Source: Klebsiella pneumoniae (lineage in GTDB: Bacteria > Pseudomonadota > Gammaproteobacteria > Eutrophobiales > Eutrophobiaceae). From it: 35,450 nucleotides of DNA. The notes under the pieces are model-generated. The model ran no database searches. It saw nothing but the letters and a program-made list of their open reading frames with translations, and was not told where the DNA came from. The first letter of the stretch is position 1. Every line of letters begins with the position of its first letter. Of the stretch, positions 24,623 to 35,450 are shown piece by piece. The translations under genes and the position numbers were made by a program. Location: the NCBI GenBank assembly GCA_945870865.1, contig CAMBTO010000017.1, positions 1 to 35,450 of the forward strand. Direction: 5' to 3'.

Positions 24623-24847
24623 CATTGCCCTTTTTAACACGACGACAGGTCCGGTCAAGCACTTTATCCCGGTTTGCAGGTCATAAGGTGCGCTGGCCCT
24701 GTCCCGTCTGACAACAAGAACCTTATCAGGTTCTGGCTTAATCATATATTATAGCGTGGCTCGCATCGGATCCGGCGAGACAGGTCCGTGATGTACCGGT
24801 ATCTACAGTCAGTGGTTCTCGAATCAATCAGATTAAGGAATAGACAG

Positions 24848-25816
24848 ATGTCAGTATTACCAGGAATTTATAAACTTCAGGATTATATCCGCCAGCAGAT
24901 TATCGGCCAGGAAGTGCTGATCAACCGCTTGTTGCTGGCCCTGCTTGCTGACGGTCACCTGCTGGTCGAGGGTGCGCCAGGACTGGCAAAAACACGTGCA
25001 ATCAAGGTGCTCGGTGAAGGCATCCACGGCGATTTTCACCGTATCCAGTTCACGCCTGACCTGTTGCCCGCCGATTTGACCGGCACCGAGATTTACCGTC
25101 CGCAGGACGGCTCCTTCCATTTCCAGCAGGGGCCCTTGTTTCATAACCTCGTGCTGGCAGACGAAATCAATCGCGCCCCGGCCAAGGTGCAGTCTGCACT
25201 GTTGGAGGCAATGGCAGAACGCCAGATAACTGTGGGCAAGGATACTTACAAGTTACCCGAACTGTTTCTGGTTATGGCAACGCAGAACCCAATCGAGCAG
25301 GAGGGTACCTACCCGTTGCCGGAGGCACAGCTGGACCGTTTCCTGTTACACGTAAGCATCACCTATCCGAAAGCGGAAGAGGAAAAACAAATCCTCGACC
25401 TGTCTCGTGCCGAGGCGCGTCGCAATTACACCCATAACACCGCCGCATATACACCCGTGTCACAGGACGTTATCTTCGCCGCACGCGAAGAGGTGCTGGA
25501 CACACACATGTCCGATGAGTTGCAGCAGTATCTGATCCAGCTGGTGCTGGCGTCACGTAATCCGGGCGTCTACGGTTCCGACCTCGCTGAATGGATCCAG
25601 TACGGTGCGAGCCCGCGTGCCACGATTACACTGGATCGTTGCGCCCGTGCCCATGCCTGGCTGGCGGGCCGCGATTATGTATTACCCGAAGACATCCAGG
25701 AACTCGCCTTTGATGTCATGCGCCATCGCCTCATCCTGAATTACGAGGCCGAGGCCGACGGTATCACCACTGACAAGGTCATCTCTGAACTGATAGCGCG
25801 TATCGCCGTACCCTGA
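24848..25816 (+). CDS. MoxR-family AAA+ ATPase
   Basis: The 322-residue AAA+ protein has a Walker A loop GAPGLAKT (42-49), a Walker B LVLADEIN with Asp105-Glu106, and the MoxR-typical ATQNPIEQEGTYPLPEAQLDRF stretch with sensor 1 and the arginine-finger region; a lid domain follows. MoxR ATPases act as chaperones that load cofactors or remodel partners carrying von Willebrand factor A (VWA) domains. The frame is open to 24788, but ATG 24848 has AAGGA (24835-24839) eight bases upstream and removes a 20-residue non-conserved leader. It is the first gene of a six-gene operon; its stop overlaps the DUF58 gene start as TGATG. Confidence 0.95.
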   Translation: MSVLPGIYKLQDYIRQQIIGQEVLINRLLLALLADGHLLVEGAPGLAKTRAIKVLGEGIHGDFHRIQFTPDLLPADLTGTEIYRPQDGSFHFQQGPLFHNLVLADEINRAPAKVQSALLEAMAERQITVGKDTYKLPELFLVMATQNPIEQEGTYPLPEAQLDRFLLHVSITYPKAEEEKQILDLSRAEARRNYTHNTAAYTPVSQDVIFAAREEVLDTHMSDELQQYLIQLVLASRNPGVYGSDLAEWIQYGASPRATITLDRCARAHAWLAGRDYVLPEDIQELAFDVMRHRLILNYEAEADGITTDKVISELIARIAVP

Positions 25817-26754
25817 TGCAAGCACGCAAGCCTCTGGTCAACGACGCCGTACAGATTACCGTTCCGGCCATCGTCAGCCTGAACCGCTACTCGGCGTTGA
25901 TTCCGCTGAGCCCGGGCAAGATCCTGGCGCGTCAGGCCGGTAACTACCAGTCGCCGTTCAAGGGTCGGGGCATGGAGTTTGACGAATCCAGGTTGTACCA
26001 GCCCGGTGATGACATCCGCAATATCGACTGGCGCGTGACCGCACGTACTGGCAAGACCCATACCAAGCTGTTTCGTGAAGAACGTGAGCGACCGGTGTTT
26101 CTGTGGGTGGACCTGCGCGCCCCCATGTTTTTTGCCACACGCGGCAAGTTCAAGTCGGTGATGGCCTCGCATCTGGCCGGGCTGCTGGCATGGAGTGCCG
26201 TGCATCATGGTGACCGTCTTGGTGGTGTGATCTTTTCCGAAACCGTCAGCCATGAGCTTAAACCACATCGCGGCAAGACCGGCGTGCTGCGCTTTATCAA
26301 CAAGCTGGTCGACCATCCCGCCTGGCAGGATCCGTATCAGGCCCAGGCCGACAAGGGTGCAATAGGTCGTGAGTTGATCCGCCTGCGCCGGGTAACCCGT
26401 CCCGGCAGCATGATTTTTCTTATCAGTGATTTTCGCTATCTGAATGACACCGATGAAAACCAGATCATCCGCCTCAGCAAACACAATGACGTAATCATGA
26501 TCTTTGTGCGTGACCCGCTGGAAGAGGCGCTGCCGCGTGGTGGCGAATACCGGCTCAGCGACGGGCGTAATGAAATGTCGATTGATACATTTGATCGCAG
26601 CTATACCGACCGTTACCGGGAGCGTTTTCAGCGTCATAATGATCGCCTGCAACGCCTGTCGCGGATGAGTAATATCTTTTTGATCTCCTGTTCAACGGTC
26701 GATGAGCCGTTACAGGTGCTGAAAACCGGCATGACCGCGAACGCAATGAAATGA
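25816..26754 (+). CDS. DUF58 domain protein
   Basis: The 312-residue protein has the DUF58 signature RLYQPGDDIRNIDW at about 59-72. It has no membrane helix or signal peptide. A VWA-like fold is likely for the central part (WVDLRAPMFF, where other DUF58 proteins have a DxSxSM-like motif), but the metal-binding serines are missing here, so it probably does not bind a MIDAS metal. DUF58 proteins regularly sit between MoxR and BatA and are thought to be partners of the ATPase. It overlaps moxR by TGATG and the next gene by ATGA. Function beyond this association is unknown. Confidence 0.93.
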   Translation: MQARKPLVNDAVQITVPAIVSLNRYSALIPLSPGKILARQAGNYQSPFKGRGMEFDESRLYQPGDDIRNIDWRVTARTGKTHTKLFREERERPVFLWVDLRAPMFFATRGKFKSVMASHLAGLLAWSAVHHGDRLGGVIFSETVSHELKPHRGKTGVLRFINKLVDHPAWQDPYQAQADKGAIGRELIRLRRVTRPGSMIFLISDFRYLNDTDENQIIRLSKHNDVIMIFVRDPLEEALPRGGEYRLSDGRNEMSIDTFDRSYTDRYRERFQRHNDRLQRLSRMSNIFLISCSTVDEPLQVLKTGMTANAMK

Positions 26755-27242
26755 CCGAGCCGAAAGACCTCGCCCTGCGCGACATCCATCTGCCCGGAGA
26801 AATTTCGTTCTGGCCGCCTGCGCCCGGCTGGTGGATCCTGGCTGCATTGATCATTTTCGCCGTGGCGGGTGGTATCTGGCTGTACCGACATAACCGCCAG
26901 TTGAAACTGTCCGCGACGCGCATGGCGCGTGAACAGCTGCAACTTATCGTAGCGCGTTACCAGTCGGACAAGGACCCGCTGGAGTTGTTACAGCAACTGT
27001 CCGTCCTGTTACGTCGACTCAGTATCAGCCTGTACCCGCGCACCGAAGTGGCCAGCCTGACCGGACAGGCCTGGCTGGAGTTTCTCGACAGACAATCTGC
27101 GCAACAGCATTTCAGTACCGGTAGCGGACGCTTGTTGTCCGAGGCACCGTATCGCCGCACGGTAGATGCCGCCGAGGCCGAGCAGGTCTTGCAGTATTGC
27201 CAGCAGTGGATAGACAAGATTGGTACGGGTAAACGACGATGA
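26751..27242 (+). CDS. DUF4381 single-pass membrane protein
   Basis: The 163-residue protein has an N-terminal DIHLPGEISFWPPAPGWW stretch (about 11-28) leading directly into one transmembrane helix (about 27-45), then a cytosolic or periplasmic helical domain. This layout and position between DUF58 and BatA fit DUF4381, a small inner-membrane component of many Bat/MoxR operons. It starts at ATG 26751 inside the upstream stop (ATGA) and ends overlapping the next ATG (ATGA at 27239). No catalytic motif is visible. It is assigned by arrangement and the N-terminal motif. Confidence 0.9.
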   Translation: MTEPKDLALRDIHLPGEISFWPPAPGWWILAALIIFAVAGGIWLYRHNRQLKLSATRMAREQLQLIVARYQSDKDPLELLQQLSVLLRRLSISLYPRTEVASLTGQAWLEFLDRQSAQQHFSTGSGRLLSEAPYRRTVDAAEAEQVLQYCQQWIDKIGTGKRR

Positions 27243-28228
27243 TCCAGTTTGAATGGCCGATGATGCTGTCGTTGCTGCCGTTACCGCTGGTGGTACGTTA
27301 TTTCAGCGGTGCCAGCACATCGAACCGCGAGGCGGCGTTACGCGTGCCGTTTCTGGAAGAGTTTGCTGCACAGTCCCGCTATGGCCAGCATCGCATGTCC
27401 ACCGCCTGGCGCGGTGCTCTGGCGACGCTGGCCTGGTTGTTGTTGATACTCGCCGCGATGCAGCCACAGTGGCTGGGCGAGTTTATCGAATTGCCTGTCA
27501 GTGGCCGCGACATGATGCTGGTGGTCGATCTGTCCGGCAGTATGCAGGAAGAAGACTTTGTCATCCGCGACCAGCGGGTAGACAGATTAACCGCGCTCAA
27601 ATATGTCGCCGGTGACTTTATTGATCGTCGGGTCGGTGATCGTATCGGCCTCATCCTGTTCGGTGATCGCGCCTACCTGCAGGCGCCACTGTCACTGGAT
27701 CGCGAGACGGTGAAGACACTCCTGTATGAAACCGTCATTGGTCTGGCAGGACGTGCCACCGCCATTGGTGACGGGATTGGTCTGGCCGTCAAACGCCTGC
27801 GTGAACAGAAAAACTCGAACCGGATCCTGATCTTGCTGACCGATGGTGCGAATTCCGCCGGTGAGGTTGAGCCGATTGATGCGGCAAGGCTGGCGGCCAG
27901 CGAAGGACTGAAGATCTACACGATAGGTATAGGTGCAGATGAAATGGTCGTCGAATCGTTTTTCGGCTCGCGCAAGGTGAACCCGTCAGCGGATCTTGAT
28001 GAAAAGGCGCTGACCGATATTGCCGAGACCACCGGTGGCCGCTATTTCCGCGCCCGCGATACCGAAGAGCTGGAGCAGATCTACGCGATACTGGATGAGC
28101 TCGAACCGATAGAGCAGGATGTGAAACGGTTCCGGCCGATGAAGTCGCTGTATTTCTGGCCGCTGTCCCTGTCGGTGTTGCTCATGTCCGGCCTGCTGCT
28201 TTACCACTACATGAGGCGCGTCGCATGA
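27239..28228 (+). CDS. batA: BatA-type VWA-domain membrane protein
   Basis: The 329-residue protein has membrane helices near 5-22 and 58-77, a VWA domain, and a C-terminal helix (about 305-325). The metal-ion-dependent adhesion site is complete: DLSGS with Asp97, Ser99 and Ser101, the Thr in ATAIGDG, and the Asp in LLTDGANS. The N-terminal MIQFEWPMMLSLLPLP resembles the aerotolerance-related N-terminal helix typical of BatA. Bat proteins (Bacteroides aerotolerance) form a membrane complex with MoxR that in some bacteria affects oxidative stress and envelope integrity. It overlaps its neighbours by ATGA on both sides, so the VWA proteins are made in step. Confidence 0.94.
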   Translation: MIQFEWPMMLSLLPLPLVVRYFSGASTSNREAALRVPFLEEFAAQSRYGQHRMSTAWRGALATLAWLLLILAAMQPQWLGEFIELPVSGRDMMLVVDLSGSMQEEDFVIRDQRVDRLTALKYVAGDFIDRRVGDRIGLILFGDRAYLQAPLSLDRETVKTLLYETVIGLAGRATAIGDGIGLAVKRLREQKNSNRILILLTDGANSAGEVEPIDAARLAASEGLKIYTIGIGADEMVVESFFGSRKVNPSADLDEKALTDIAETTGGRYFRARDTEELEQIYAILDELEPIEQDVKRFRPMKSLYFWPLSLSVLLMSGLLLYHYMRRVA

Positions 28229-29997
28229 GCGGACTCGAACAGTTTCATTTTCTCCGTCCCTGGTGGTTGCTCGGTTTTATCCCGCTGCTGTGGTTACTGC
28301 TGCAGATGGCCAGAAGCACACTGATCAGTCGCAGCTGGGAGGCCGTTGTTGATCGCCAGTTATTACCGTTTATTCTGGTCGGCAATACCACCGCACGCGG
28401 AACCGTGCCCTCGGTATTGCTGGGTATCTGTGGCACGCTGGCCATCGTCGCTCTCGCCGGGCCGGTGTGGGAAAAAATGCCACAACCGGTATTCAGTGCG
28501 CGTACGGCGCTGGTCGTAGCGCTGGACTTGTCGCGGTCGATGGATGCTGCTGATATCCAGCCAACGCGGCTTGAACGCGCACGTTTCAAGATCAATGACT
28601 TTCTGGACAAACGCGCCGAGGGCCAGACTGCATTGCTGGTGTATGCCGGTGATGCGTTTGCGGTGACACCGCTGACCGATGATGTGGCGACCATCAAGTT
28701 ACAGCTGCTGGCGCTGACGACCGACATTATACCGGTGCAAGGCAACCAGACCGGCACCGCGATCATGATGGCCATTGAGTTGCTGAAAAAAGGCGGTGCG
28801 ACAAAAGGGGATATCCTGCTGATTACTGACGAAGTCGATTTTGATCGGGCAGAGGAGGCCGCCACGGCGGTAGCCGGGGCGGGTTACCGCCTGTCCATTA
28901 TGGGTGTCGGTACAGAAGAAGGCGCACCGATTGCGAAGCCCGATGGTGGATTCCTCACTGATGAACTGAACAATATTATCGTGCCGGTCCTTGACGAGGC
29001 GCCGATGCAGCAACTGGCTGGCGTCGGTGGTGGCCGTTATACCCACATCAGTCTGGATGATTCCGATATTGAGACACTCGACAGCTTCTTCTCTGCAGCG
29101 TTGACCGAGGGGGATGTGGACGAGACCGAGTTTGAAACGGATGTCTGGCGTGAACAGGGGCCGTGGTTATTGTTGCTGTTGATACCATTGTCCGCCTTGT
29201 TATTCCGCCGTGGTTATATCATCGTCCTGGTACTGGCCATTATGCCCTGGCCACAACCGGCCGAGGCACTGGACTGGGACAGCCTGTGGCTGCGTCAGGA
29301 TCAGCGGGCGAAGTCGGCACTGGATGCCGGTGATGCGTCGACTGCAGCTGAACTGTTTGAGGATCCCTCCTGGAAAGGGGCGGCACAATACCGCGCCGGC
29401 GAGTATGACAAGGCCGCCGAGACGTTGAAGACACAGGAAGATATCGAGAACAACTATAACCTCGGCAATACACTTGCTCGCAAGGGCCAGTATGATCTGG
29501 CGATCAAGATGTACGATCAGGTACTGGCCGCCAATCCGGAGCACGAGGACGCGAAGTTCAACAAGGAGTTGCTGGAAAAGGAACTCGAACAGGAGCAACA
29601 ACAGCAGAAGCAGGACCCGAATCAGCAGCAGGATCAGCAAAAGGACGAGAATCAGGAAAAGGACGAACAGAACCAGCAGCAGAATCAGCAGCAAAATCAG
29701 GACGAGCAGAAACAGGAACAGCAGGACGAAAAGAAACAACAGCAAGATCAGAACCAGAACGAGCAGAAAGAAAAACAGAAGCAGGAAGAGCAGCAACCAG
29801 AGGAACAGCAGCAGGAGTCCGAGCAGAAACAGCAGGAACAGTCTGAAAAGGAATTGCCACAGAACGAAGAGAAACAGGCCACCGAACAATGGTTGCGGCG
29901 TATCCCGGATGATCCGGGTGGCTTGTTACGCAGAAAATTTCTGTATCAGTACCAGCAACGAGACCATGGCAGGGACCAGGGAGATAAAACATGGTGA
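28225..29997 (+). CDS. BatB-BatC fusion: VWA domain, TPR and Gln/Glu/Lys-rich tail
   Basis: The 590-residue protein joins two usual Bat proteins. Residues about 10-330 are BatB-like: N-terminal helices (12-28, 60-80), then a VWA domain with DLSRS (Asp101, Ser103, Ser105), and a further hydrophobic pair (about 313-345). The second half has tetratricopeptide-like repeats (about 385-445, NYNLGNTLARKGQYDLAI) as in BatC. From about 452 to 555 the sequence is almost only Gln, Glu, Lys, Asp and Asn, likely a charged disordered or coiled linker. It ends with PDDPGGLLRRKFLYQYQ, a conserved C-terminal motif in TPR-containing BatB proteins. The TPR should lie in the periplasm. Translation of the next gene starts inside its last codons. 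Confidence 0.92.
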   Translation: MSGLEQFHFLRPWWLLGFIPLLWLLLQMARSTLISRSWEAVVDRQLLPFILVGNTTARGTVPSVLLGICGTLAIVALAGPVWEKMPQPVFSARTALVVALDLSRSMDAADIQPTRLERARFKINDFLDKRAEGQTALLVYAGDAFAVTPLTDDVATIKLQLLALTTDIIPVQGNQTGTAIMMAIELLKKGGATKGDILLITDEVDFDRAEEAATAVAGAGYRLSIMGVGTEEGAPIAKPDGGFLTDELNNIIVPVLDEAPMQQLAGVGGGRYTHISLDDSDIETLDSFFSAALTEGDVDETEFETDVWREQGPWLLLLLIPLSALLFRRGYIIVLVLAIMPWPQPAEALDWDSLWLRQDQRAKSALDAGDASTAAELFEDPSWKGAAQYRAGEYDKAAETLKTQEDIENNYNLGNTLARKGQYDLAIKMYDQVLAANPEHEDAKFNKELLEKELEQEQQQQKQDPNQQQDQQKDENQEKDEQNQQQNQQQNQDEQKQEQQDEKKQQQDQNQNEQKEKQKQEEQQPEEQQQESEQKQQEQSEKELPQNEEKQATEQWLRRIPDDPGGLLRRKFLYQYQQRDHGRDQGDKTW

Positions 29998-31721
29998 TGC
30001 ACATAATCCACAGATTTATGGCAGTGTTCATGCTGATGTTATTGACCGGCACGGCAGTTGCCGAGATTTCCATCCGCGCCGATCGGAACCCGGTATCGAT
30101 GAACGAATCATTCAAGCTGACCTTTGATGTGACCAATGGCTCGGGTGATGACCCTGATTTTGCCCCGCTGCAGAAGGAGTTCCAGATCCTCTCGACCAGT
30201 CAGAACAGCTATTACAGTATGGTCAACGGTCAGATCAGCAGCTCTAAACAATGGACGCTGACGCTGATGGCGACGGCATCCGGCAAGCTGAAGATCCCGG
30301 CGATATCGTTTGGTGCCGAGATGAGTCCGATCGCCGAGATCGAGGTGGAAGCTGACAGCAGTGGCACCGGTGGCCAGAAAGACGAGTTTGTGTTCCTGGA
30401 ATCGAGTGTGTCCAGCCAGAACCCGTATGTGCAGTCCCAGGTCATCTATACACTGAAATTGTTTCGCGCGGTTGCTATCGCCAAGGCCAGTCTCGGTGAA
30501 CCGGTCATAGGTGAGGGCAACGCGGTGCTCGACAGGATCGATGATGACAAGACCTACGATACCGTTATCGACGGCAAGCCCTGGCAGGTGATAGAACGCA
30601 CCTACGCGATTTATCCGCAGGCGAGCGGCAAGGTCACGATCCCGCCGGTCAGTTTTATGGGGCAGATTTCGCGTAACGCCTACGGTTATGATCCGTTTGG
30701 CCCACCACCGCGAACCGTGTCACGTCGATCATCCGAGCAGGTGCTCGACGTACGTGCCATCCCGGCCGCGTTTACCGGCACACACTGGATGCCGGCAAAC
30801 AACCTGACACTGGCCGAACAATGGAGCGTCGACCCGGCCAGCCTGCAAATGGGTCAACCGGTCACCCGTACGCTGATCATGACAGCGAACGGCCTGCTCG
30901 CCAGCCAGTTACCGGAATTACCCGCCTGGCCACTGACCGAACTGAAATATTACCCCGACCAGCCCACGTTAAGTGATGAGCGGTCCGACACCGGCGTGAC
31001 CGGTACCCGCAGCGAGAAGGCGGCAATCATTCCTAACCTCGCTGGCAAGTATGTGCTGCCGGAGATTTCGATTCCGTGGTGGAATATTACAATGGACAAA
31101 CTTGAATACGCGGTCGTGCCAGAACGGACAGTTGAGGTCATGCCTGGTGCCGCTGGTGCCAATGCACCTGCCGCTGCCCCGCAGCCACAAACGCAACAAC
31201 CCGTTGTAACCGAGTCAGTTGTCGCACCCGCCCCGGTGGAGGTATCCGCAGTGGTCACCGAGGCTGTGCCTGCCACCAGCGGTGATCACTGGAAATGGAT
31301 CAGCGCCGCCCTGTTGATGTTGTGGATAGCGACGATGCTGATGTGGTGGCAAAAGACGCGTGGCGTTGCAACCTCGGTTACCCCATCGCACCCTGGCAAG
31401 GGAAAGGTAGATGGCGCAGCAAAGCAGGTGCTCGACACCTGCAAACAAAACGATGCCGCAGCGACCCGACTTTCATTATTGCAATGGGGCAAACTTGCCT
31501 GGCCGAAAAATCCACCGTTCAGTCTGATCGACATCGGTGCGCGTACCGGTAGCGAGATGGCCATGGAAATCAAGTCGCTGAATGATGCCCTGTACGGCAA
31601 GGACAGCAAGTCTTGGTCCGGCGAGAATCTCGCCCGCGTATTTGCAGTGGAGTCGGCACGAATTGTGGTGGAGAAAAAACCGGGCGAACCGGGCAAGCTG
31701 GAGCCGTTGTACCGGTTATAA
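29991..31721 (+). CDS. BatD-like protein (DUF7939/BatD family)
   Basis: The 576-residue protein has a signal peptide (cleavage likely after Ala24, TAVA-EIS), several periplasmic beta-rich repeats (FKLTFDVTNGSGDDPDF, then PYVQSQVIYTLKLFR and PVTRTLIMTANGLLASQLPELP), an Ala/Pro/Thr-rich linker (about 384-430), one transmembrane helix (about 436-455) and a cytosolic helical tail. This matches BatD, the last component of the Bat complex. The start at 29991 has GGGAG seven bases upstream and overlaps the previous stop; ATG 29997 is possible. It ends the operon, followed by 191 bases with no clear terminator before the cytochrome gene. Confidence 0.93.
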   Translation: MVMHIIHRFMAVFMLMLLTGTAVAEISIRADRNPVSMNESFKLTFDVTNGSGDDPDFAPLQKEFQILSTSQNSYYSMVNGQISSSKQWTLTLMATASGKLKIPAISFGAEMSPIAEIEVEADSSGTGGQKDEFVFLESSVSSQNPYVQSQVIYTLKLFRAVAIAKASLGEPVIGEGNAVLDRIDDDKTYDTVIDGKPWQVIERTYAIYPQASGKVTIPPVSFMGQISRNAYGYDPFGPPPRTVSRRSSEQVLDVRAIPAAFTGTHWMPANNLTLAEQWSVDPASLQMGQPVTRTLIMTANGLLASQLPELPAWPLTELKYYPDQPTLSDERSDTGVTGTRSEKAAIIPNLAGKYVLPEISIPWWNITMDKLEYAVVPERTVEVMPGAAGANAPAAAPQPQTQQPVVTESVVAPAPVEVSAVVTEAVPATSGDHWKWISAALLMLWIATMLMWWQKTRGVATSVTPSHPGKGKVDGAAKQVLDTCKQNDAAATRLSLLQWGKLAWPKNPPFSLIDIGARTGSEMAMEIKSLNDALYGKDSKSWSGENLARVFAVESARIVVEKKPGEPGKLEPLYRL

Positions 31722-31912: not shown

Positions 31913-32854
31913 ATGAAACACTATATCTGCATTCTGTTGTTTACGCTGGTATCCACGTATGCTTTCGCGCAGCAACCCAAGCCTGACTGGGCTTTTCCGG
32001 TCACCGATAAAGTGCTTCCTCCCGCCAACGAGGATCCTGACAAATTGTGGACCGCACCGGGCAGTAAGTTGTCTGTAACGCGTGCGCAGATCAATGACAG
32101 GTATAACACGCCGGACTGGTTTCCGGAGATGTACCCACCGATGCCTTCCATAATAAAAACTGGAGACCCCGCGCGGGAACTGCGTGCATGCGGTTTGTGC
32201 CACCTGCCTACCGGCACGGGGCATGATGAATCCGCCTATGTGGCCGGCCTTCCTGTCGATTATTTCATCCGGCAGATGGCCGACTACAAGAGTGGTGACC
32301 GTAAGGGATCTGGCACGATGGTCACGCTGGCCAAGGTGATCACCGACGAAGAGGTGCGCATCGCCGCCGAGTACTATGCGGCGGTCAAACCGCGTCCCTG
32401 GTTCCGCATCGTCGAAACCGATACCGTACCGAAAAGCTACGTCGGTCAGGGTAACAAGCGCCTGGTGCATCCTGACGGTGGTACCGAACCGATAGGCAGT
32501 CGCATTGTGGCTCTGGCGGAAGATGAGGACATTGTGCTGAATCGCGACCCGCGATCGGGTTTTGTCGCGTATGTGCCGAAGGGCAGCCTTGAGAAAGGCA
32601 AGGAACTGGTCACGACGGGGGGTGGCGGCAAGACGGTCCCTTGCGGTGTTTGCCATGGCGCAACCTTGCAGGGGGCGAACAATGTGCCACCGATCGCAGG
32701 ACGTGGACCAAACTATATCGTACGCCAACTCTGGAGCATGCAGAACGGTGAACGAACCGGTCCGTCAAATGCGATGATGACGCCCGTGGTCCATAATCTT
32801 ACTGTAGACGATATGCTGGCGATCGCCGCGTATACTGCGTCGCTGGCACCGTAG
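31913..32854 (+). CDS. exported diheme c-type cytochrome
   Basis: The 313-residue protein has a signal peptide (about 1-19, cleaved at AFA-QQP) and two covalent heme sites, CGLCH at 93-97 and CGVCH at 244-248. Each half has the class I cytochrome pattern of a C-terminal helix (TDEEVRIAAEYYAAV and TVDDMLAIAAYTASL) and a candidate axial Met (GSGTM and NAMM). About 70 residues without a heme motif precede the first site, and about 70 lie between the domains, so it is larger than a typical c4. GAGGAG (31901-31906) six bases upstream supports the start. It is 192 bases upstream of a heme-containing lipoprotein gene. It is probably a periplasmic electron carrier; the donor is unknown. Confidence 0.94.
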   Translation: MKHYICILLFTLVSTYAFAQQPKPDWAFPVTDKVLPPANEDPDKLWTAPGSKLSVTRAQINDRYNTPDWFPEMYPPMPSIIKTGDPARELRACGLCHLPTGTGHDESAYVAGLPVDYFIRQMADYKSGDRKGSGTMVTLAKVITDEEVRIAAEYYAAVKPRPWFRIVETDTVPKSYVGQGNKRLVHPDGGTEPIGSRIVALAEDEDIVLNRDPRSGFVAYVPKGSLEKGKELVTTGGGGKTVPCGVCHGATLQGANNVPPIAGRGPNYIVRQLWSMQNGERTGPSNAMMTPVVHNLTVDDMLAIAAYTASLAP

Positions 32855-33046
32855 CCTGCAGAATAACTGAACCTGCCCGCAGTACCCGCATCCATGGATG
32901 TGCCGTAGCCGCTGGATCTCAGGCGGCACGGTATTATCCAGACTGACTTTCCAACGGTTTAGCTTTATCTTGACGATTAATCACGTCTATACTGTCAAAA
33001 AATGATGTGCGCTAATAACTTTATCGTTCATGAAGGAAATGCAAAG

Positions 33047-35188
33047 ATGAAAATGACACAGGGTTTACTCTCAATATTCATTATAGTATCGCTCGCTGTT
33101 TCCTCTTGTGACAGCGGTACCCAGCAGGCATCGACAGCAGTGGCTCCACCGGAACCAATATCGTCTACACCTGCACCGGTCCCTTCGATTGCGATCGATG
33201 CGGATGATATTGCCGGGGTGGTGAGTAGTAGCAACGGCCCGGAAGCCGGCGTGTGGGTTATAGCCGAGACCGATGCCTTGCAGACTCGATTTAATAAAAT
33301 CGTGGTGACCGATGACCAGGGCAGGTATTTGATCCCGGATCTGCCGGATGCGGAATACCGTCTCTGGGTCCGCGGCTACGGCCTTGCGGATTCCACCCGC
33401 GTAAATGCGCGCCCGGGCAATATTGTAGATCTGGCCGCTGTTATCGCACCGGATCGGAAAACAGCGGCAGAGGTATATCCCGCCGCCTACTGGTACGCAA
33501 TGTTGAAGCTACCCGAGGAAAGTGAGCTTGCCTTTTTGCCTGGCGGTCTGAATCATTATATAGGCAGGATGAAGAACACCGACTGTCTCGGCTGTCATCA
33601 ACTGGGTGCCAAGGCAACCCGGACCCTTCCCGCTGAATTTCAGGGTATGGAGACATCACAGGCCGCCTGGCTGCGACGCCTCTCGTCAGGACAGGCCGGT
33701 ACCCGCATGATGGGGGTCATCAGTGACCTGCAGGGATTGCCGATAAAGTATTTTGCGGACTGGACGGACAGGATCGCTGCCGGTGAATTGCCGGCTGAAG
33801 ACCCCGTGCGGCCATCAGGACCGGAGCGTAATATCGTGGTGACGATACGTGACTGGATGGAACCGATTAACTACGTACATGATCTGTCTGGAACGGATCG
33901 CCGCAACCCGACCGTCAACGCCTACGGCCCCTTGTATGGCGCACCCGAGCTTAGTACCGATCAGTTCCCGATTCTGGATCCGGTCAATAATACGGCCACC
34001 AGCTTTACCGCGACTGTCCGCGACGCAGACACACCCAGCACAGCAAAGGATCCGGTCATCGCACCCTCGGCCTATTGGGGTGGTCAGGTGATCTGGGACA
34101 GCAAGGCGATTGCACATAACCCGATGTTGGACCACAAGGGCCGGGTCTGGTACACGGCGCGTATCCGGGGACCGGAGAATCCCGCGTTCTGCCAGGAGGG
34201 ATCGGAGCATCCGTCTGCCAAACTGTTTCCCACCAAGCGTTCTGGCAGACATCTATCGGTGTATCAGCCTGCCACCGGCGAATATAAATTTGTCGACACC
34301 TGTTTTTCGACTCATCACTTGCAGTTTGCCGAGGATGCAGATAACACGCTCTGGACCAGTGGCGGCGGTGAGGTCATCGGCTGGCTGAACACACGAATTT
34401 ATGACGAGACCGGCGATGTCGAGGCGGCGCTCGGCTGGTCACCCTTGATCCTGGATACTAACGGCAACGGGGTACGGGACGAGTGGGTCGAACCCGACGC
34501 ACCGGCGGATGCGGCCAAGGATACCCGTATAATCCCTGACTTCTATTCGATCATGCCCAACCCGGCAGACGGTTCTGTGTGGGGCTCAAATAACGGCTAT
34601 CCCGGCAGGCTCATACGCTTTGATCCGAAGACCGGATTGGGTGAGAAATTCAATGTGCCGCTACCGGGCTTCAGCAGCCGTGGGTCGGACATTGATCGTA
34701 ATGGCGTGATCTGGGTGGCACTGGCCAGTGGTCATATGGGCGAATTCGACCGCCGCAAATGTACCGGGCCGTTAAACGGACCGAATGCGACAGGAGACCA
34801 TTGCCCTGAAGGCTGGACCTTCCATCAACTGCCCGGCCCGGCGTTTATCGGTCATCCGGAATACAAGGTGGATTCAAGCTATTACGCCTGGGTCGATCAA
34901 CACAATACGCTGGGACTGGGCGAGAATGTGCCGATGGCAATCGGTAACCTGTTTGACGGCGTACATGCGCTCGTTGATGGAAAATTCATCACCATCCGTA
35001 CACCCTATCCACTCGGGTTTTATACCAAAGGTTTTGAAGGCAGGATAGATGACCCGAATGCAGGCTGGAAGGGACGTGGTCTGTGGATACCGGAAGGTAG
35101 CCGCACACCCTGGTTGCTCGAAGGTGGTAAAGGTACAAAGCCGATCATACTGCATGTCCAGTTGCGCTCAACCCCGCTGGATAAATAA
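33047..35188 (+). CDS. heme-binding lipoprotein: carboxypeptidase-regulatory-like domain, CxxCH and Vgb/NHL-like propeller
   Basis: I do not know a named function. The 713-residue protein starts at 33047 with AAGGA nine bases upstream. It has a lipoprotein signal peptide (lipobox Val-Ser-Ser-Cys near residue 21), then a Ser/Thr/Pro/Ala-rich linker, a carboxypeptidase-regulatory-like beta domain (about 48-140, GVVSSSNGPEAGVWVIAE, DDQGRYLIPDLPD), one heme site CLGCH at 180-184, and a beta-propeller-like region (about 335 to the end) whose repeats DHKGRVWYTA, DADNTLWTSG, NPADGSVWGS and DRNGVIWVAL resemble virginiamycin B lyase/NHL blades. DTNGNGVRDE (470-479) looks like a calcium-binding loop. 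Probably an outer-membrane or periplasmic redox enzyme served by the adjacent cytochrome; substrate unknown. Confidence 0.88.
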   Translation: MKMTQGLLSIFIIVSLAVSSCDSGTQQASTAVAPPEPISSTPAPVPSIAIDADDIAGVVSSSNGPEAGVWVIAETDALQTRFNKIVVTDDQGRYLIPDLPDAEYRLWVRGYGLADSTRVNARPGNIVDLAAVIAPDRKTAAEVYPAAYWYAMLKLPEESELAFLPGGLNHYIGRMKNTDCLGCHQLGAKATRTLPAEFQGMETSQAAWLRRLSSGQAGTRMMGVISDLQGLPIKYFADWTDRIAAGELPAEDPVRPSGPERNIVVTIRDWMEPINYVHDLSGTDRRNPTVNAYGPLYGAPELSTDQFPILDPVNNTATSFTATVRDADTPSTAKDPVIAPSAYWGGQVIWDSKAIAHNPMLDHKGRVWYTARIRGPENPAFCQEGSEHPSAKLFPTKRSGRHLSVYQPATGEYKFVDTCFSTHHLQFAEDADNTLWTSGGGEVIGWLNTRIYDETGDVEAALGWSPLILDTNGNGVRDEWVEPDAPADAAKDTRIIPDFYSIMPNPADGSVWGSNNGYPGRLIRFDPKTGLGEKFNVPLPGFSSRGSDIDRNGVIWVALASGHMGEFDRRKCTGPLNGPNATGDHCPEGWTFHQLPGPAFIGHPEYKVDSSYYAWVDQHNTLGLGENVPMAIGNLFDGVHALVDGKFITIRTPYPLGFYTKGFEGRIDDPNAGWKGRGLWIPEGSRTPWLLEGGKGTKPIILHVQLRSTPLDK

Positions 35189-35204
35189 CGGGTCACCCCC
35201 CTCA

Positions 35205-35241
35205 AACGGTGTCTGAATAAACAGGCCCCGTTATTTTTTTT
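35205..35241 (+). terminator. intrinsic terminator after the heme lipoprotein
   Basis: AACGG (35205-35209) pairs with CCGTT (35228-35232), with an inner CTG/CAG pair, and eight T residues follow at 35234-35241. It lies 17 bases past the stop codon and should end the rightward transcript. Confidence 0.75.
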
Positions 35242-35324
35242 CTGTTTATTTCTACTCCCGCAAGTATTCGCCGTCGACTCCAGCGATCCGGACTATAGTC
35301 TACCCCTTTACTTACTATTGAAGT

Positions 35325-35450
35325 TCAGGGGCAGTGCCCTATGCGGCAGCCGCGTGCCTCAATGTCGGCAATCTCGTCCAGGTTCGAAGGGATGAACCCG
35401 TCGCGGTTTGGCATGACGACCTTCGGAAGTGTTTCAGCGTTCATCACCTC
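35325..35450 (-). CDS. 3' end of an unidentified leftward gene, cut by the window edge
   Basis: The last 126 bases are open on the minus strand for 41 codons before a TGA at 35325-35327. The fragment ends NLDEIADIEARGCRIGHCP, with two cysteines near the C-terminus. It contains no stop and has a normal amino-acid mix, so it may be the tail of a real gene, but the family is not recognised and so short an open frame can occur by chance. It would be convergent with the heme lipoprotein gene, with the terminator at 35205-35241 between them. Confidence 0.4.
   Translation of the reverse strand, partial: EVMNAETLPKVVMPNRDGFIPSNLDEIADIEARGCRIGHCP

Follow-up and report, generated by a model that had tools for sequence, protein, structure and literature searches.

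A diheme cytochrome c gene and a heme-propeller lipoprotein gene form a locally conserved pair with a plausible joint redox function

The window analysed here, a stretch of DNA of 35,450 nucleotides, carries towards its end two genes that encode a diheme c-type cytochrome and a lipoprotein with a heme-binding motif and a predicted beta-propeller (Table 1). A Bat-type operon (24788-31721) lies upstream of this pair. At the contig end, past the terminator, a convergent cytochrome c gene is represented by its 3′ end (35325-35450, minus strand). In the sister genome, termed G274, the counterpart of this last gene (L026:6467-7060) overlaps the 3′ end of a gene for a SoxC-type sulfite dehydrogenase, and the two are a convergent sulfite-oxidation pair adjoining the module. 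Below, G000 denotes the window's own genome, and G275, G276 and G277 denote other members of the genus.

Table 1. Features of the cytochrome and lipoprotein locus, in window positions; residues of the lipoprotein are counted from position 33002.
Feature	Positions	Strand	Basis
Exported diheme c-type cytochrome, 313 aa	31913..32854	+	ORF; RBS GAGGAGA; 70-sequence alignment
Heme-binding motif 1, CGLCH (residues 93-97)	32189..32203	+	Translation; invariant in 70 sequences
Met136, likely sixth ligand of heme 1	32318..32320	+	Invariant in 70/70; role by analogy with class I cytochromes
Heme-binding motif 2, CGVCH (residues 244-248)	32642..32656	+	Translation; invariant in 70 sequences
Met289, likely sixth ligand of heme 2	32777..32779	+	67/70, the other 3 gapped
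Hairpin between the two genes, without T tract	32895..32940	+	Strong fold; conserved in G274
Lipoprotein: CarboxypepD_reg-like domain, c-type heme, seven-bladed propeller	33047..35188	+	ORF, lipobox, start in sister genome
CarboxypepD_reg-like domain (residues 70-144)	33209..33433	+	PF13620, E 8.4e-6, under its cut-off here
Heme-binding motif CLGCH (residues 195-199)	33584..33598	+	Cys195, Cys198 and His199 invariant in 65/65
Met236, likely sixth ligand of the lipoprotein heme	33707-33709	+	Invariant in 65/65
Seven-bladed beta-propeller, Vgb-like (residues 277-722)	33830..35167	+	AlphaFold2 model; fold matches
Rho-independent-type terminator	35183..35245	+	Inverted repeat AAATAACGGG/CCCGTTATTT and T tract

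An earlier, sequence-only reading of this DNA had proposed that an exported diheme cytochrome and a heme-containing propeller lipoprotein make up a two-gene redox module. The description of the cytochrome is confirmed by our analysis, since the open reading frame begins with a signal-like sequence and encodes two CXXCH motifs. Because both motifs are invariant and both Met136 and Met289 are conserved, the protein can be described from its sequence as a two-domain carrier with predicted ligation of the His/Met type. Its best relatives among solved structures are cytochromes c4, c552 and c554. Assignment to the periplasmic diheme shuttle PdsA (NF049874) was rejected, with a score of 34.9 bits that falls far below the cut-off of 330. 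The window's genome also encodes PF01578 proteins for cytochrome c assembly, as well as subunit I of two heme-copper oxidases, and hence has the means to attach hemes and to reoxidize them. On contig C19 of the same genome we observed a decayed paralogue of the diheme cytochrome (L038:6398-6703), which contains an in-frame stop, is missing its heme-1 half and immediately follows a heme-Vgb propeller gene (L038:4970-6310).

The longest open reading frame for the lipoprotein spans positions 33002-35188 and encodes 728 amino acids. The real start is likely to be position 33047, because there is an RBS-like sequence GAAGGAAA and because the open reading frame in G274 begins at the corresponding codon. 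With this start the two rightward genes are separated by 192 bases (147 if position 33002 is used), precisely the spacing given in the sequence-only reading. The signal peptide MKMTQGLLSIFIIVSLAVSSC contains, by reading, the lipobox LAVSSC, which fits the pattern of bacterial lipoproteins; many homologues have no lipobox match, so that membrane anchoring is not universal in the family. Pfam identifies the CarboxypepD_reg-like domain alone in the window protein, and all 65 aligned members match PF13620 at E<=0.01. Likewise, only this small N-terminal domain was matched, weakly and to SdrD, when relatives with solved structures were sought by sequence. The heme domain modelled alone had no match with Z>=2 in a small comparison with 25 PDB chains.

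The structure of the lipoprotein was predicted using AlphaFold2 with an alignment of 65 sequences, and the resulting confident model has a mean pLDDT of 90.7 and a pTM of 0.88. In both structure comparisons the top match to the propeller was virginiamycin B lyase (Z 23.1, rmsd 2.7, 287 aligned residues), and the next other fold followed at a Z of about 20.6, approximately 2.5 Z lower. The repeat motifs of the inner propeller strands include His372, His438, His439 and Arg560, which are among the residues invariant in all 65 sequences. Against the corresponding Pfam family (PF24684, Vgb_lyase), the window protein gave no match at E<=1, and none of the 65 members gave one at E<=0.01. With its lipobox, single CXXCH motif and predicted seven-bladed propeller, the protein agrees with the heme-containing propeller lipoprotein proposed earlier.

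Two RNA-level features accompany the genes. The hairpin between them, absent from the earlier reading, is present as a single copy in the window's genome and has no match in Rfam, and we therefore rejected its assignment as a REP-like repeat or as a known RNA; it may serve as a processing or stability element. The terminator downstream of the lipoprotein gene folds better than shuffled sequences do (z -2.1), and in G274 the corresponding position has a stronger hairpin with a T tract (z -2.7). A crude terminator scan found 3 sites where 2.9 are expected from shuffles, which is not above chance. The earlier proposal that both genes are closed by one strong terminator thus stands with respect to the hairpin and T tract, which are kept in G274, but the word 'strong' was slightly generous. 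A single transcript spanning the cytochrome and lipoprotein genes is possible.

Within the genus the pairing is conserved. The cytochrome gene adjoins the lipoprotein gene in G000, G274 and G276 (in the last at a contig end), and in G275 the two genes share one same-strand cluster without being directly adjacent. G277 has no lipoprotein paralogue of the window type, and its cytochrome gene is located elsewhere. In the lipoprotein tree, all four members of the window-type clade have the cytochrome in the cluster, while none of the members of the second paralogue clade do. The pairs in G275 and G276 are clearly diverged (73% lipoprotein identity).

The cluster of G275 (L027:6868-16075) encodes on one strand a heme-Vgb protein, the diheme cytochrome, a TonB receptor, an Amidohydro_2 protein and the lipoprotein, and it faces two hydrolase-like genes. 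The presence of the TonB receptor, the amidohydrolase and a second heme-Vgb protein points to the uptake and breakdown of an organic compound. At three other loci (L030, L031 and L033) the second lipoprotein paralogue is found in a different conserved cluster, together with a HEAT-repeat protein, small secreted paralogues and ABC/permease-like genes and without any cytochrome.

Outside the genus the two families occur in the same genomes far more regularly than they occur side by side. Among approximately 80 lipoprotein loci with flanks of up to 10 kb, the cytochrome family was found at three that lie outside the genus. A search at 1e-20 recovered 62 copies of the cytochrome family in 25 of the 49 lipoprotein-bearing genomes outside the genus, with none in the other 24. 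The same family is absent from the 251 other genomes sampled from the class, such that the window's genome is the sole carrier among 252. A Fisher test of 25/49 versus 0/251 yields a p of about 3e-23, of which only the direction is to be trusted because phylum and lifestyle are not the same in the two samples. The two families are no more than 3 kb apart in 4 of the 25 genomes, versus 0.56 expected under random placement (P about 0.002), in a chance model that assumes uniform gene placement, ignores gene clustering, uses a 3 kb limit picked after the data had been seen and is applied to short contigs. In the remaining 21 genomes the genes are kept apart or reside on separate contigs.

The pairs outside the genus differ in gene order and orientation. 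In the acidobacterium G347 the lipoprotein gene comes first and the cytochrome gene follows 18 bp away on the same strand. G317 carries a lipoprotein gene and two cytochrome genes in divergent orientation, G329 carries the same set on one strand, and the two genes of G343 are on the same strand 2.5 kb apart. When adjacency is mapped as a label on the lipoprotein tree and on the cytochrome tree, each requires at least five changes, and 6 of the 8 rows that represent adjacent cytochromes fall into one subclade with the window's cytochrome. G283 and G296 have the cytochrome family and lack the lipoprotein. Heme proteins in general are not enriched beside the lipoproteins (12/406 near versus 8/431 far, p 0.37).

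The cytochrome family also has other neighbours. A scan of 114 proteins, almost all of them encoded no more than two genes away from a member of the family, identified 13 DUF6152, 4 GSDH and 3 SGL proteins, of which the GSDH and SGL types are propellers. DUF6152 recurs across the cytochrome-family loci L161-L220 as the commonest neighbouring family, ahead of the lipoprotein described here. Furthermore, the cytochrome homologue of the alphaproteobacterium Parasedimentitalea has a gene for an MRJP-type propeller 20 bp upstream. The DUF6152, GSDH and SGL neighbours make the cytochrome look like a shuttle for several enzymes, some of which are propellers, and it is probably a general shuttle that serves other enzymes too rather than one dedicated to the lipoprotein.

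These counts bear directly on the proposed module. A fixed two-gene module across bacteria was rejected on these counts, since homologues of one gene mostly lie away from those of the other. Counting adjacent homologues, the check proposed in the earlier reading, supports the pairing inside the genus, where three genomes have adjacent genes and a fourth has them clustered, and proximity outside is above chance. Across all homologues, however, the two are rarely neighbours, which literally matches the refuting condition set in that reading. What survives of the two-gene redox module is therefore a conserved local pair with a recurrent association, whereas a fixed or obligate unit is not supported (4/25). 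The data instead support an optional, locally assembled and repeatedly formed partnership of the cytochrome with the lipoprotein.

The lipoprotein family itself is widespread. A profile search of species genomes identified 580 relatives among 595 pattern hits, and the record names place these in Gamma-, Alpha- and Betaproteobacteria, Acidobacteriota, Rokubacteria, Bacteroidota and others. The protein is rare when the class of the window is sampled evenly. Many of the relatives derive from MAGs and some of their names are doubtful; specifically, the closest relative carries the label Klebsiella pneumoniae and is encoded on a contig of G274 (L040, CAMDWI010000005.1), whose source MAG is evidently mislabelled. 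A full-length homologue with 56% identity is present in Microvirga ossetica (WP_099514940.1), where it is annotated as a 'carboxypeptidase-like regulatory domain-containing protein'. This name reflects the N-terminal domain only, and no cytochrome gene is listed next to the Microvirga gene.

Thus a large family whose database name derives from a small N-terminal domain alone combines a Vgb-type propeller with a c-type heme motif that is invariant, and the genes of some lineages are linked to one for an electron carrier. A search of the open-access literature yielded no description of a cytochrome system of the heme-Vgb or CarboxypepD_reg kind. Taken alone, the pair looks like an ordinary redox neighbourhood, and more interest attaches to the uncharacterised lipoprotein family. 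If redox-active, the members of this family would represent a new oxidoreductase class, located in the periplasm or at the outer membrane of soil and marine bacteria. A more specific proposal, which we regard as rather unlikely in its full form, is that the family members are exported heme-propeller oxidoreductases that act on TonB-imported organic substrates and have repeatedly recruited diheme shuttles as acceptors. The window pair and the larger G275 cluster offer a concrete place for testing electron transfer and substrate.

A joint function of the cytochrome and the lipoprotein is plausible, and we tentatively favour the view that the pair in this genus is a small electron-transfer unit of the periplasm and outer membrane; its redox activity, its substrate, the direction in which electrons flow and the contact between the two proteins are inferred. 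The lipoprotein would be exported and lipid-anchored, and its single covalent heme would sit in a small domain that adjoins the Vgb-fold propeller. Most likely, the propeller pocket would bind and oxidize an organic substrate, and the lipoprotein heme would then relay electrons to the diheme cytochrome, a soluble carrier that would hand them on to the respiratory oxidases. The propeller genes of GSDH, SGL and MRJP type beside the cytochrome family speak for this view. There is, however, a serious possibility that the neighbours work separately. In that case the cytochrome would be a c4-like shuttle of general use in the periplasm, placed downstream of the Bat operon by chance, the lipoprotein would have its own acceptor or none, and adjacency would reflect the clustering of catabolic and redox genes. 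The scarcity of adjacent homologues of either gene is consistent with separate work, as are the cytochrome of G277 without a paired paralogue, the cytochromes of G283 and G296 without any lipoprotein, and the DUF6152, GSDH and other genes that adjoin the cytochrome family. Nevertheless, the pair has been conserved in the genus over the clear divergence between G275 and G276, the genes have approached each other several times independently on the trees and form the closely spaced same-strand pair of G347, and the two families strongly co-occur by genome.

Given the Vgb relationship, the lipoprotein could also be a Vgb-fold lyase or a hydrolase, with a heme that is structural or senses redox state and a cytochrome that either is unrelated to the chemistry or supplies a regulatory electron. 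This explanation draws on the best fold match, on the profile similarity of most of the lipoprotein to heme proteins that match Pfam Vgb_lyase, and on the amidohydrolase and hydrolase neighbours, which suggest hydrolytic pathways. We nonetheless consider it improbable, because a heme motif and candidate Met ligand that are both invariant in 65 of 65 sequences fit electron transfer better than a structural role. Even the direction of flow could be the opposite of that in the favoured electron-transfer unit, with the cytochrome giving electrons to the lipoprotein and the lipoprotein reducing an external acceptor. The sequence fixes no direction, and one cytochrome domain is weakly similar to PdsA. 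However, that similarity is far below the cut-off noted above, the neighbourhoods examined revealed no multiheme outer-membrane conduit, and the two heme-copper oxidases suggest aerobic use, all of which make reverse flow very improbable.

Comparison with known systems places both proteins more precisely. Like cytochrome c4, the window cytochrome has two class I c-type domains, each with a CXXCH motif and a candidate distal Met, and its sequence matches both c4 domains with E values down to 8.8e-15. Unlike c4, it has a long stretch between its domains (roughly residues 158-226), and in the best alignment the domain order is swapped, such that the second domain corresponds to the first c4 domain and vice versa. 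The protein therefore lacks the c4-type order and short linker, and it belongs to a distinct family of its own, apart from c4.

Quinohemoprotein dehydrogenases and cytochrome cd1 nitrite reductase likewise combine a propeller and a c-type heme in one periplasmic protein and exchange electrons with small cytochromes. The lipoprotein was rejected as a member of either group, as it has no match at E<=1 to a PQQ family or to Cytochrom_D1 (PF02239). Vgb, its closest match in fold, is a redox-neutral lyase and not a redox enzyme. In contrast to Vgb, the window protein adds a lipobox, a CarboxypepD_reg-like domain and a heme domain, and its propeller contains large insertions (about 446 residues versus about 290).

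Proteins in which CarboxypepD_reg, CXXCH and Vgb_lyase follow one another in this order (for example L027:14441-16075 and L222:12455-14233) also occur in the genus. These heme-Vgb proteins, which are linked to the lipoprotein family by hhalign and match PF24684 themselves, share with the lipoprotein the domain order, the single CXXCH motif and, within the genus, a location near the same cytochrome family. The similarity is remote (hhalign 98.5%, 19% identity over 415 columns), and the propeller of the heme-Vgb proteins is shorter. On the basis of the Vgb-type fold and this profile link, the heme-Vgb architecture, in a diverged and enlarged form, describes the lipoprotein best.
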